From: Fischerella sp. JS2
GTDB taxonomy: Bacteria > Cyanobacteriota > Cyanobacteriia > Cyanobacteriales > Nostocaceae
Direction: 5' to 3'
Assembly (NCBI RefSeq): GCF_032393985.1
Contig: NZ_CP135918.1
Coordinates: 5,147,724 to 5,211,723, forward strand
Length of the DNA stretch: 64,000 nt
This document shows positions 1,725 through 13,356 of the stretch, in pieces. Under the pieces are notes generated by a model. It ran no database searches. It was not told where the DNA came from and saw nothing but the letters and a program-made list of their open reading frames with translations. The position numbers were made by a program, and so were the translations under genes. The first letter of the stretch is position 1. Each line of letters begins with the position of its first letter.

Positions 1725-2633
1725 GTGGTGACACCAGAAGTAATTGGTATTGACTTGGGGGGAACGGCAATTAAGCTGGGACGGTTTACAGCTGATGGCA
1801 CTTGCCTAAAATCCTTAACTGTAGCAACTCCCCAACCAGCAACTCCAGAAGCAGTGATAGCAACAATGGTAGATGCGATCGCCCAATTAGATCCACTCAG
1901 CCAGGCTGTTGCTATTGGTGTTGGTACTCCCGGCCCTGCGGATGCAACTAGGCGCATTGCTAAATTAGCTATTAATCTGCCAAGATGGGTTGATGTCCCT
2001 CTTGCTGATGCTTTAGAAGCGAAAATTGGCAAACCAACGATTCTCGATAATGATGCCAATTGTGCAGGTTTGGGAGAAGCTTGGCTAGGAACCGGTCGCC
2101 ACTTTCAAAATTTTATCTTATTAACTTTGGGGACTGGCGTTGGTGGGGCAATTTTTATTGATAATAAATTATTTGTCGGACATTACGGTGCTGCTGGGGA
2201 ATTAGGTTTAATTACATTCAACCCAGATGGAACCATGTGTAACAGTGGCAACAAAGGTTCGTTAGAACAGCATGTTTCAATTACAGCAATTCGTCGCCGC
2301 ACTGGAAAAGAACCCTCACAATTAAGCGTTTTGGCACAATCTGGAGACGCCGCCGCCTTAAATTTTTGGCAAGAATACGGTAGAGATTTAGGTATTGGTT
2401 TAACAAGTTTGATTTACGTACTGACACCACAAGCGATTATTATTGGTGGGGGTGTTAGCGCTAGTGCTAAGTTTTTTTTACCAGCTGCCAAAGCAGAAAT
2501 TGAGAAACGAGTCTTACCCACATCTCGCGTAGATTTACAAATTTTGCCAGCCGCATTAGGAAACTCTGCGGGAATGTTGGGTGCAGCGAGGTTGGCGTGG
2601 GGGATGGTGGGGAGGTGGGGTGATGGGGTGTAG
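1725..2633 (+). CDS. ROK-family sugar kinase (glucokinase-like)
   Basis: Cytoplasmic ATP-dependent kinase of the ROK family, most likely acting on glucose. The GTG start gives 302 residues, normal for the family. The N-terminal phosphate-binding motif is DLGGTAIKLG (about residue 9) and a second glycine-rich motif reads LTLGTGVGGAIF. The substrate-site motif GELG is present. The zinc motif of many ROK proteins (CxCGxxGC) is here C172-N-S-G-N-K-G-S179, so two of the usual cysteines are serine. The last residues (GMVGRWGDGV) are translated from a purine-rich GGGGAGGTGGGG repeat that runs past the stop, so the native C-terminus has probably been replaced by repeat sequence. Confidence 0.85.
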   Translation: MVTPEVIGIDLGGTAIKLGRFTADGTCLKSLTVATPQPATPEAVIATMVDAIAQLDPLSQAVAIGVGTPGPADATRRIAKLAINLPRWVDVPLADALEAKIGKPTILDNDANCAGLGEAWLGTGRHFQNFILLTLGTGVGGAIFIDNKLFVGHYGAAGELGLITFNPDGTMCNSGNKGSLEQHVSITAIRRRTGKEPSQLSVLAQSGDAAALNFWQEYGRDLGIGLTSLIYVLTPQAIIIGGGVSASAKFFLPAAKAEIEKRVLPTSRVDLQILPAALGNSAGMLGAARLAWGMVGRWGDGV

Positions 2634-2695
2634 ACGCGCTCATAGGCTTCCCGTAGGGTAGGGGTGATGGGGAGTGTGAGAGGTGTGAGGAGTAG
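2590..2695. repeat. Purine-rich GGTGGGGAGG tract
   Basis: G-rich tract made of variants of GGGGATGGTGGGGAGGTGG. It starts inside the ROK kinase C-terminus, continues past its stop, and is interrupted by a GTAGACGCGCTCATAGGCTTCCCG repeat unit. Similar tracts (either strand) occur near 8720-8775, 29125-29285, 30430-30600, 30900-31015, 31540-31580, 36265-36370 and 42840-42965. Confidence 0.75.
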
Positions 2696-2709
2696 TAATA
2701 ACAACTAAT

Positions 2710-2739
2710 GTACAGACGCGATGTTCCTCGCGTCTGTAC
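2710..2739. repeat. Palindromic element, copy 3
   Basis: Arms GTACAGACGCGA and CGCGTCTGTAC with centre TGTTCCT. It lies in the convergent spacer between the ROK kinase and the CHASE2 kinase and could form a strong hairpin there, so it may act as a bidirectional terminator. The centre reads in the opposite sense to copy 1. Confidence 0.8.
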
Positions 2740-2757
2740 TAACTACTAACCACCAAG

Positions 2758-4989
2758 TTATTCAATCTTTTGCAATTCTTGTAGCACTTCAGCAGCAGAT
2801 TGATAGCGATCGCTAAAGTGATAGCGAACCATTTTATCCAAAATTTCTGCTAAATTCTCGCTCACTTTTACTCCATGACGCCATTCCACAGTACCAGTTT
2901 CAGGATGCGGATGAAGTTCGTGCGGTGGTATCCCGGTAATTGCTTGAATGGCAATCATCCCCAAAGCATAAATATCACTGGATAATCGAGGATGACCAGC
3001 AAACTGTTCTGGTGGTGCGTAACCGCGTGTTCCAATAGCTACTGTGGCTAATTCCGTTTGTTCACTAGATTGTGGTTGCATCATCTTCACTGCACCAAAA
3101 TCAATTAGCACCAAGCGATGATCTGTATCGCATCTAATAATATTACTTGGTTTGATATCGCGATGAATCACACGATGTTCATGAACAAATACCAGTACTT
3201 CTAATATTCCTTTTAGTATTTCGATAACATCAGATTCAGTTTTGATATCGTGATGGGGTGGTAATTCATCGCTGAGGGCATGTCCCGAAATATATTCTTG
3301 TACTAAATAGAATTCGTTGTTCTCTTCAAAATATGCCAACAATTCTGGAATTTGATGATGCTTACCTAAAACTTCTAAAATTTCTGCTTCTGCATCAAAT
3401 AATCTTCTGGCAACTTGCATAAATCTTGTATCTCGGCGGGCTGGCATAAGTTGTTTGACGACACAAATAGGATTGCCAGGACGCTGGTTATCTTTTGCTA
3501 AATAAGTACAACCAAATCCACCCGAACCAAGTACTTTATGAATTTGATAACGCCCACCTAAAATAAAGTCACCAGTCGCTTTTTCTGTGTTATCAACTGT
3601 TGCCCCAGAATGGAAATGTTTGTCATAAATCCGTGTAGATTCTTTTAAGAGTGTATTTAATTGTTCTATGGCTTCTTTTTGTTTTTCAACTTGTAAAACA
3701 ATTACTTTTGTGTGTTGTTGAGTTTGGTAAGTACTGTAAGCCATAACACTAACACTACTCAAAACCAAAGTCACAGCAGGCGGTATAACTGGCAACCATG
3801 CCCCTTGCAAAAATAGTAAATAACAAACACCTACTAAGCCACCCAAAGACACACTACCAGCTAAACCTAGACGTAGGGGATATCGCAACTGCCATGCTAT
3901 GATACCTCCTACCATTGACCATCCCCACATCCAAACAGCTTCTGCCCAGTTTGGTAAGTACCAAATTAGGTGGCGATCGCTCAATACTGTACTGATAATC
4001 TGACTTGCTGCCTGTGCATGAATATAAACAGGTGCTATCCTTTGCGGATACTTAGATGAACCACTGTAGGGTGTATAAAAACCTGGATGAACGCTACGGG
4101 CAGTAGTACCAATAATGACGAGACGGTCTTTGAACCAATTAGGGTCTACTTTATCCTGTAAAACTTGTGTGAGAGTAACTTGTTTAGCAAACTCAGAAGG
4201 ATCACGGTAATTCAGTAGAATTTGATAACCTGCTGCATCAATATTTTCATAGCCACCTGCATCTTTCAATAAACGCGGAAATAGACTTTTACCTATATAA
4301 AAATGGTTTATATCAGTGAAATAAGATTTAATGCCTTGTCTTTCCAGGTAATGAATTGCTAATAGGGCGGCAAAGGAAAATTTTGTTTGACATTTTTTGT
4401 CATCAGAAGCAGCAAATAACAAACTGCGACGGACAATCACATCTTCATCATCAGAAATTACATCACTAAAGCCGACTTGGTCAATGGGAAAATTAGGTGG
4501 TGGCGGAATTTCTGGACTGCCCATACTGCTGAACGTGCAGTAAGTGATCACATTATCTAGATTTTGCAGACCAGCCCCTAAATTTTTCTGTTTGGAACGG
4601 TCAATACTCAACCCAATAACCCGTGGTTGATAAGACTGGATTTTGATTAATAGCCGATTGATAATGTCATCTGGCAGAGAAAAATCTTGTGACCCCAAAT
4701 CCTCTTCAGTGACAGTAACTAGTAAAAGATGGGGATCTGGTGCTTCAGCAGGGCGTAGCCTGATCATTTGGTCGTAAGTAGCTAATTCCCAAGTCTGCAA
4801 CCATTTCAGATGGCGAACTCCCAGCACTAAGATAGTAACTCCTACACTGGTTATAAAAATAGTTTGCAGCCAGTTGCGGCTGGTATTGTCCTGAGGACGT
4901 CTATCTTTTGTCGCTAAAGCGGTGCGGAGTTTCCTAAGTAGTGTAATCACGGCTTGGTGGCGATCGCCCAAATTTGGTAGATGGTGCAA
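2758..4989 (-). CDS. CHASE2-domain Ser/Thr protein kinase
   Basis: Membrane receptor kinase of 743 residues. An N-terminal helix (about 45-62) leads into an extracytoplasmic CHASE2 sensor domain (about 65-340). A cluster of three hydrophobic segments (about 350-420) and a short coiled coil follow. The cytoplasmic Hanks-type kinase domain starts near 478, with the glycine loop LGSGGFGCTYLAK, the lysine in CVVKQL, catalytic HRDIKPSN near 608, DFGAV, and the APPEQF substrate motif. All catalytic residues look intact. CHASE2 kinases are common in filamentous cyanobacteria; the ligand is unknown. The gene is transcribed alone. Confidence 0.9.
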   Translation of the reverse strand: MHHLPNLGDRHQAVITLLRKLRTALATKDRRPQDNTSRNWLQTIFITSVGVTILVLGVRHLKWLQTWELATYDQMIRLRPAEAPDPHLLLVTVTEEDLGSQDFSLPDDIINRLLIKIQSYQPRVIGLSIDRSKQKNLGAGLQNLDNVITYCTFSSMGSPEIPPPPNFPIDQVGFSDVISDDEDVIVRRSLLFAASDDKKCQTKFSFAALLAIHYLERQGIKSYFTDINHFYIGKSLFPRLLKDAGGYENIDAAGYQILLNYRDPSEFAKQVTLTQVLQDKVDPNWFKDRLVIIGTTARSVHPGFYTPYSGSSKYPQRIAPVYIHAQAASQIISTVLSDRHLIWYLPNWAEAVWMWGWSMVGGIIAWQLRYPLRLGLAGSVSLGGLVGVCYLLFLQGAWLPVIPPAVTLVLSSVSVMAYSTYQTQQHTKVIVLQVEKQKEAIEQLNTLLKESTRIYDKHFHSGATVDNTEKATGDFILGGRYQIHKVLGSGGFGCTYLAKDNQRPGNPICVVKQLMPARRDTRFMQVARRLFDAEAEILEVLGKHHQIPELLAYFEENNEFYLVQEYISGHALSDELPPHHDIKTESDVIEILKGILEVLVFVHEHRVIHRDIKPSNIIRCDTDHRLVLIDFGAVKMMQPQSSEQTELATVAIGTRGYAPPEQFAGHPRLSSDIYALGMIAIQAITGIPPHELHPHPETGTVEWRHGVKVSENLAEILDKMVRYHFSDRYQSAAEVLQELQKIE

Positions 4990-11158: not shown

Positions 11159-11335
11159 ATGAAACCAACTGTCGAACAAGCAATTGAATTATTCAAGGTG
11201 TGTCAGGATTTAACTCAGATGTACCTGCCGATTTACTTGGTGAGATTAGATGAACGGACAACACGTATTTACATTCTGGCAGGACAAGAAACTGAAATAG
11301 AGATATTTCACAACGCAAGAGTGAGATACCTATGA
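11159..11335 (+). CDS. DUF6888-like small protein
   Basis: A 58-residue frame not longer than typical for this family, starting MKPTVEQAIELFKVCQDL and ending HNARVRYL. The motif MYLPIYLVRLDERT is what I recall as DUF6888, a small cyanobacterial family generally found next to DUF6887. Its TGA stop overlaps the ATG of the next gene (ATGA), so the two are translationally coupled. It probably belongs to a three-gene unit ending in a RelE-type toxin. Function unknown. Confidence 0.72.
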   Translation: MKPTVEQAIELFKVCQDLTQMYLPIYLVRLDERTTRIYILAGQETEIEIFHNARVRYL

Positions 11336-11601
11336 CTGAGCGAAATTTTCAGGCAATGACTAAACAAGAGTTAAGAGCTTATGTTTTGGCACATCGAGAC
11401 GACCAAGAAGCTTTTTATGCCTTAGCCGACAAGCTTAGAGAACAGCCGGGAGTTGAAATCACCTCAACAAAGCAATTGCATGAGCTAGTTGAGGCAAGGT
11501 TGGATGACGCTGATGCAAGAGATGCTTATGCAACACTAGAAGAGGTTGCAATTGTTGGAGCAATGCCCCTTGAGGAGCTGAAAAAGGAGCTAGGGATATG
11601 A
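11332..11601 (+). CDS. DUF6887-like putative antitoxin
   Basis: An 89-residue protein. Its first 35 residues (FQAMTKQELRAYVLAHRDDQEAFYALADK) match DUF6887, normally paired with DUF6888. The second half (about 45-89) is acidic and helical (HELVEARLDDADARDAYATLEE) and ends KKELGI, like antitoxins of RelE/ParE systems. It overlaps both neighbours by four bases. The likely job, inferred from position, is neutralising the RelE-type protein encoded next; no DNA-binding domain is obvious. Confidence 0.72.
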   Translation: MTERNFQAMTKQELRAYVLAHRDDQEAFYALADKLREQPGVEITSTKQLHELVEARLDDADARDAYATLEEVAIVGAMPLEELKKELGI

Positions 11602-11858
11602 GCTATCAAGTAGCACTAGCACCATCAGCTGTGCAGGAAATTGCAAAATTAGATTCTGAATTACAACGACAGCTAGCGCAAAAACTAGAGCAACTAGCAT
11701 TTAACCCGCGTCCAGAAGATGCTATACAACTAATACTGAAGGGGACAGAAAATTTATATAGAATTCGCTTGGGCGAATACCGGGTTATTTACCATATTCA
11801 GGAGCAATCTTTGCTAGTCACAGTGATAAAAATTGCACATCCAAAAGATTACTATTAA
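11598..11858 (+). CDS. RelE/ParE-family toxin
   Basis: An 86-residue protein with the RelE-fold pattern: an N-terminal strand YQVALAPSAVQEI, a helix-rich AQKLEQLAFNPRP segment, and the core LYRIRLGEYRVIYHIQEQSLLVTVIKIAHPKDYY. The RIRLGEYRVIY and final HRxxxY-like motifs are those of mRNA-interferase-type RelE toxins. Its ATG overlaps the preceding stop (ATGA), a normal antitoxin-toxin arrangement. Target assignment (mRNA cleavage at the ribosome) is from the family. Confidence 0.88.
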   Translation: MSYQVALAPSAVQEIAKLDSELQRQLAQKLEQLAFNPRPEDAIQLILKGTENLYRIRLGEYRVIYHIQEQSLLVTVIKIAHPKDYY

Positions 11859-12660: not shown

Positions 12661-13272
12661 TTAGTGGGAAGAAGCAGGTGTTTTTTGGATAATGTTGTCA
12701 ACTAAACCGTAGGCTTTTGCTTCTTCAGCACTCATAACAAAGTCTCTTTCAGAATCAAGTTTAATTCTCTCTTCCGGTTGACCAGTGTTAGCAGCTATTA
12801 TCCTATTCATAGTTTCTCTGAGATACAAAATTTCTGTAGCTGCTACCTCAATTTCAGTTGCTTTTCCCTCAGTGCTTGTTGATGGTTGACGAATTGTAAT
12901 TCTTGCGTTTGGGAGAGTGTATCTTTTCCCTTTAGTACCAGAACAAAGCAAGAATGCTGCCGTAGCAGTCGCATTACCAATGCATACAGTACATATATCT
13001 GTACGCAGCTGAGTCATAGTGTCATAAACAGCCAAGGCTGCTGTTAAGGAACCTCCAGAACTATTGATATACAATGTAGTATCTTGCTCTGGGTCTTTCG
13101 CATCAAGAAATAGCATTTGTGCCACAATTAAATTCGCTATTTCTTCTGTTAATTCCCCACGTAAAAAGATAATTCTTTCTGCAAGCAATCGGGAATAAAT
13201 ATCAAACTGTATTTCTTCTTGCTGGGATGGTTGAATAATAGTTGCAAAGCCGATTTGAGATGGAGAGTTCAT
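12661..13272 (-). CDS. ClpP-like protein lacking catalytic Ser and His (ClpR-like)
   Basis: A 203-residue member of the ClpP fold. ATG at 13272 is preceded by GGAG ten bases upstream. The fold is clear: ERIIFLRGELTEEIANLIVAQMLFLDAKDP, the handle YINSSGGSLTAALAVYDTM, and ERDFVMSAEEAKAYGLVDNII. The active-site stretch GxxASM reads G99-NATAT, placing Ala103 where the nucleophile Ser belongs. The HQP histidine is Arg128. Such subunits resemble ClpR, which joins ClpP in mixed rings in cyanobacteria. It does not look like the canonical clpR gene. It converges on hetI with only five bases between stops. Confidence 0.85.
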   Translation of the reverse strand: MNSPSQIGFATIIQPSQQEEIQFDIYSRLLAERIIFLRGELTEEIANLIVAQMLFLDAKDPEQDTTLYINSSGGSLTAALAVYDTMTQLRTDICTVCIGNATATAAFLLCSGTKGKRYTLPNARITIRQPSTSTEGKATEIEVAATEILYLRETMNRIIAANTGQPEERIKLDSERDFVMSAEEAKAYGLVDNIIQKTPASSH

Positions 13273-13356
13273 AGTTACTAGCTCCAAAAGGTAAGATTTA
13301 TTTTTTAATAAACCACAGAAAACGCAGAGAACGTGGAGGAAGAGAATTACTATTTG

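Follow-up and report, generated by a model that had tools for sequence, protein, structure and literature searches.

A three-gene unit in the cyanobacterium Fischerella sp. JS2 most likely constitutes a type II toxin-antitoxin module belonging to the RelE/ParE superfamily, with a DUF6888-DUF6887 pair standing in for the DUF2281 domain usually found at the N-terminus of the antitoxin (we put the probability of this reading at roughly 0.7). The unit lies in a window of 64,000 nt, the whole stretch of DNA that we analyzed (NZ_CP135918.1, positions 5,147,724-5,211,723; assembly GCF_032393985.1), and the genome around it is a single contig of 7.02 Mb. Two features of the sequences point to this class: the third gene encodes a homologue of RelE/ParE toxins, and the adjoining gene encodes a protein whose tail is homologous to the toxin-binding tail of known antitoxins. 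In the mechanism that we propose, the tail of the 89-aa protein would wrap around the toxin and block it, and the DUF6887 domain, most likely together with DUF6888, would supply oligomerization, stability control or regulation of the operon.

Table 1. Features of the three-gene unit; positions are those of the window.
Feature	Position	Strand	Evidence
DUF6888 protein, 58 aa	11159..11335	+	PF21828, 95.7 bits (gathering score 27); predicted helix and four strands
Putative fused antitoxin, 89 aa (DUF6887 domain followed by antitoxin tail)	11332..11601	+	PF21826; conserved unit, 26 loci
DUF6887 domain, about aa 1-56	11332..11499	+	PF21826, 70.2 bits over aa 4-53 only (gathering score 24.2)
Tail, aa 52-89, homologous by profile to the toxin-binding C-terminus of DUF2281-type antitoxins	11485..11598	+	hhalign 97.7%, E 1.4e-12
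ParE/RelE-family toxin (predicted), 86 aa, ending AHPKDYY	11598..11858	+	PF05016 (ParE_toxin), 41.4 bits

As the original prediction stated, the three open reading frames overlap by four bases each; the overlap reads ATGA at both junctions. The second protein also carries the acidic, antitoxin-like half that had been ascribed to it, in the form of a mildly acidic extension (9 D/E versus 4 K/R in aa 55-89). DUF6887 is the only Pfam match of this protein above the cut-off, and a DUF2281 N-terminal domain is absent by the same measure. The closest matches of the triad are found in Fischerella sp. PCC 9431 and Pelatocladus maniniholoensis, with an identity of 92%.

Judged by profile comparison, the extension at aa 52-89 shares homology with the tail by which ordinary DUF2281 antitoxins of cyanobacteria bind their toxins. 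The match in Table 1 was obtained by aligning a profile of 14 tails with seven solo antitoxins, and its probability of 97.7% compares with only 0.4% for ordinary DUF6887 proteins aligned to the same seven. By this measure, the antitoxin feature sits in the added tail and not in DUF6887 itself. Three of the seven aligned solo antitoxins match DUF2281 (PF10047), which forms the N-terminal domain of the nearest relatives and is listed among the antitoxin families of Synechocystis (PMC4963859). When aa 40-89 were used to search 292 cyanobacterial genomes, we recovered three further fusions of DUF6887 and three short proteins that lack it (two of them with a DUF2281-like N-terminus), along with one weak match in a long unrelated frame. 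The three fusions and the three short proteins are each encoded immediately before a relative of the toxin in the window. More distant relatives of the toxin are preceded by antitoxins that combine varied N-terminal parts (classified by eye, DUF2281 excepted) with a similar acidic C-terminus. The structure of the fused antitoxin is modeled as four helices with moderate confidence (pLDDT 76, pTM 0.42), and a fold search with this model returned no convincing match.

The tail and the toxin are obligately linked. When 217 genomes from the family of this cyanobacterium were scanned, the fused protein was present at 26 loci (L075-L099 and L101), and each of these has the toxin, or what is left of it, directly downstream and DUF6888, whole or as a remnant, upstream, whereas the next best matches (L100 and L102-L104) possess neither tail nor toxin. 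A survey of 292 genomes yielded 113 other DUF6887 loci, and at none of them is a ParE/RelE gene placed to share an operon with DUF6887; the few such genes within the surrounding sequence covered all lie more than 500 bases from DUF6887 and, except at L133 (1.8 kb upstream), on the strand opposite to the locus-defining DUF6887. Fisher's exact test of 26/26 versus 0/113 gives p of about 1e-28, a value that is overstated because related loci are not independent. The original prediction had proposed looking for RelE/ParE genes beside DUF6887 at large, and had named homologues with the same C-terminus but, in most genomes, no toxin neighbor as the finding that would speak against it. Such homologues were not encountered among the 26 loci, and at the loci surveyed the expected neighbor is confined to the tailed proteins.

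The three-gene arrangement is not a product of chance, because the triad is conserved at these 26 loci and all of its parts are under purifying selection. Although genes of either type are frequent in these genomes, we therefore give almost no credence to the notion that a DUF6888-DUF6887 pair and a RelE/ParE gene merely came to lie side by side and acquired a random extension. This notion is contradicted by the conserved loci, by the match of the tail to known antitoxins and by the overlap of the genes, and chance alone would place a ParE gene at a distance of 1 kb or less from one of 96 DUF6887 genes only about 0.3 times.

The triads share a common origin. In a tree of the toxins, the 22 intact ones from triads fall into a single clade (99/98) that groups with DUF2281-linked toxins (81/99), and 10 of the 11 fused DUF6887 domains tested likewise form one clade (99/88), with the divergent domain of L101 falling beside it. 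The history that fits best is that DUF6887 replaced the DUF2281 N-terminal domain of the antitoxin, probably once. The unfused protein that comes closest, found in Fischerella muscicola PCC 7414 (L204), ends shortly past the point at which the tail would start. The unit has persisted in some seven genomic contexts: a comparison of flanks separates seven downstream contexts, some of which might be split by divergence. The median of pairwise dN/dS values is 0.15 for DUF6888 (16 intact triad copies), 0.12 for aa 1-43 of the fused antitoxin (DUF6887), 0.38 for its aa 44-89 and 0.26 for the toxin. Decay is seen in L088, L093 and L099, where the antitoxin or toxin gene is damaged; in L099, a short element with inverted GGACTTACGCA repeats at its ends interrupts the fused antitoxin gene at about 1415-1500. 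An operator shared by all triads was considered and rejected, since 18 aligned upstream regions display similarity within one genomic context only; a lineage-specific operator upstream of the triad is possible.

The RelE toxin of the original prediction holds as to family, and its PHROGs label is RelE-like. The narrower name fits less well, as the protein is closer to ParE_toxin in Pfam and its match to NCBIfam RelE_StbE falls below the cut-off of that model. Its relatives in the PDB are 2khe, 1wmi and E. coli RelE. A C-terminus of the form HRxx[VAI]Y is present in 25 of 26 sampled relatives that occur without DUF6887 but in none of the 22 intact triad toxins, all of which end in AH or TH followed by [PLSI][KQT][DN]Y. 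The HRxxVY segment overlaps the catalytic R81-Y87 segment of RelE, and the equivalent of RelE R61 (YR[IV]) is kept in triad toxins. Cleavage by RelE is lowered by the mutations R61A, R81A and Y87A and is nearly abolished in the R81A/Y87F double mutant (PMC2807027). The mapping of R81 is uncertain, with E. coli RelE carrying two extra residues in this region and the alignments to its PDB chains disagreeing.

Triad toxins thus lack the catalytic segment with R81 and Y87 that characterizes RelE as a ribosome-dependent mRNA interferase, and because the HRxxVY segment has been lost, a RelE-type nuclease mechanism is doubtful for them. They could act in a ParE-like manner, or they could have lost activity and be weak or inactive. 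Toxicity need not have been lost along with the motif, because ParE-type toxins, which have the same fold, poison gyrase without the catalytic residues of RelE. It is unlikely, in our judgment, that a former toxin-antitoxin pair has been repurposed, such that a toxin without nuclease activity now has a structural or co-regulatory part in a DUF6887/DUF6888 complex. The absence of a motif that the sampled relatives almost always keep, the near inactivity of the RelE double mutant and the purifying selection on the toxin despite this loss would all suit such a role, but the example of the gyrase poisons and the ambiguity over which arginine equals R81 weigh against it.

For a toxin-antitoxin module of the kind that we favor, DUF6888 is probably dispensable for neutralization, because in L084, L085, L089, L090 and L091 its gene carries a truncation, an interruption or a stop, whereas the antitoxin and toxin frames are open there. 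This damage counts against the module reading, as do the lost segment of the toxin, the lack of an upstream operator common to all contexts and the moderate confidence of the antitoxin model. L090 and L091 are close relatives, and the stretch that interrupts DUF6888 in L091 is similar to the element in L099. Of the antitoxin or co-antitoxin role originally suggested for these proteins, the part that concerns the fused DUF6887 protein of this lineage appears sound in view of the tail homology, and the part that casts DUF6888 as a co-antitoxin is weakened by this damage. A joint function of DUF6887 and DUF6888, presumably as a complex, is supported by L097, in which a single reading frame of 163 codons spans DUF6888 and the fused antitoxin (a natural fusion), and by the position of DUF6888 directly upstream of 74 of 96 DUF6887 genes in 24 near-complete genomes. 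The corresponding count over 114 loci is 91 of 117.

When the model of DUF6888 (pLDDT 96) was compared with solved structures, the best match was to the DNA-binding domain of T4 MotA, with a TM-score of 0.81 by query length, an rmsd of 1.8 and a Foldseek E of 0.38. A further comparison with this domain gave a Z of 6.4 and an rmsd of 1.6 over 56 aligned residues, and such small matches can reflect a common arrangement. DUF6888 may have a MotA-like DNA-binding fold, a likeness that, at a Z below 8, we take as a lead only. PDB sequence relatives of DUF6888 or DUF6887 were limited to repeat-like or borderline matches, which we disbelieved. Somewhat speculatively, DUF6887 and DUF6888 might form a small regulatory or DNA-binding platform that, joined to the tail, has become the head of a new antitoxin class, with a toxin that has lost the RelE segment and works by another mechanism. 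If true, this would provide the first function for DUF6887 and DUF6888.

The broader claim that the DUF6888 and DUF6887 families as such are toxin-antitoxin parts is not supported, because the immediate neighbors of ordinary DUF6887 loci are diverse and unrelated and the operons of the 113 surveyed contain no ParE/RelE gene. A common toxin family beside the ordinary pairs was also sought and rejected; raw counts of downstream genes are 4/83 for Uma2, 3/83 for DUF433 and 2/83 for GmrSD, and AAA ATPases are found upstream in 4/85. A search of plasmids gave two short partial matches only, and our literature search found no paper on DUF6887 or DUF6888. We regard it as quite improbable that DUF6888 and DUF6887 generally constitute a toxin-antitoxin pair of their own, in which case the locus would combine two systems. 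Like many two-gene modules, the pair has a patchy distribution, occurs in multiple copies, is tightly linked and lies in unrelated neighborhoods, yet neither protein bears a toxin mark in fold or sequence and PADLOC gave no match; the larger number of solo DUF6887 genes (22) than solo DUF6888 genes (9) does not decide the matter.

Several ordinary loci have features of their own. In L204 of Fischerella muscicola (1774-4559), a DUF6888-DUF6887 pair is flanked on one side by a MoxR-type ATPase gene and on the other by a gene for a 444-aa DUF58-looking protein, in a host operon that is otherwise familiar. L145, L153 and L154 encode DUF6887 proteins of ~180 aa that have in common a C-terminal domain of about 120 aa, a different DUF6887 fusion, and in L145 this gene is followed by a GmrSD-like gene. 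L110 (2184-2779) contains a DUF6887 gene that overlaps the gene downstream of it; from a reading of its sequence, this second gene looks like DUF433, a known cyanobacterial antitoxin family.

Among known systems, the cyanobacterial DUF2281-type antitoxins with RelE/ParE toxins (L049-L051) resemble the triad in toxin family, in antitoxin tail and in having the antitoxin directly upstream, but they have a DUF2281 N-terminus instead of DUF6887, no DUF6888 gene, and a toxin that keeps HRRDVY or HRRDAY. RelBE of E. coli likewise consists of an antitoxin gene followed by a gene for a RelE-fold toxin, although RelE keeps R81 and Y87 in the segment lost from the triad toxin, and the N-terminal domain of RelB is a ribbon-helix-helix, unlike the DUF6887-headed antitoxin. 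The paaR2-paaA2-parE2 operon of E. coli O157:H7 (PMC8630535) has three genes in similar order, with an extra upstream gene, an antitoxin and a ParE-family toxin; its upstream gene, however, encodes a transcriptional regulator and not DUF6888, and its antitoxin lacks an N-terminal DNA-binding domain, whereas that of the triad carries DUF6887. Panacea/DUF4065 antitoxins (PMC8832971) were also a domain family whose function was once unknown and that was exposed by toxin neighbors and domain exchange, but they have many toxin partners and DUF6887 is found here with one toxin lineage only.

Through the triad, the roles of DUF6887 and DUF6888, both common in cyanobacteria and functionally uncharacterized, become testable for the first time. 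The triad is a clean illustration of N-terminal domain exchange in an antitoxin that kept its toxin-binding tail, with a matching change in the active-site segment of the toxin. It also urges caution, in that one fused lineage should not name a whole domain family. Near the triad, the minus strand of the window (12661-13287) encodes a ClpP-like protein with GNATATAAFLL and ITIRQP at the sites of the catalytic serine and histidine motifs of ClpP. Because these sequences replace both motifs, the protein is, judged by eye, probably a ClpR-type inactive subunit.
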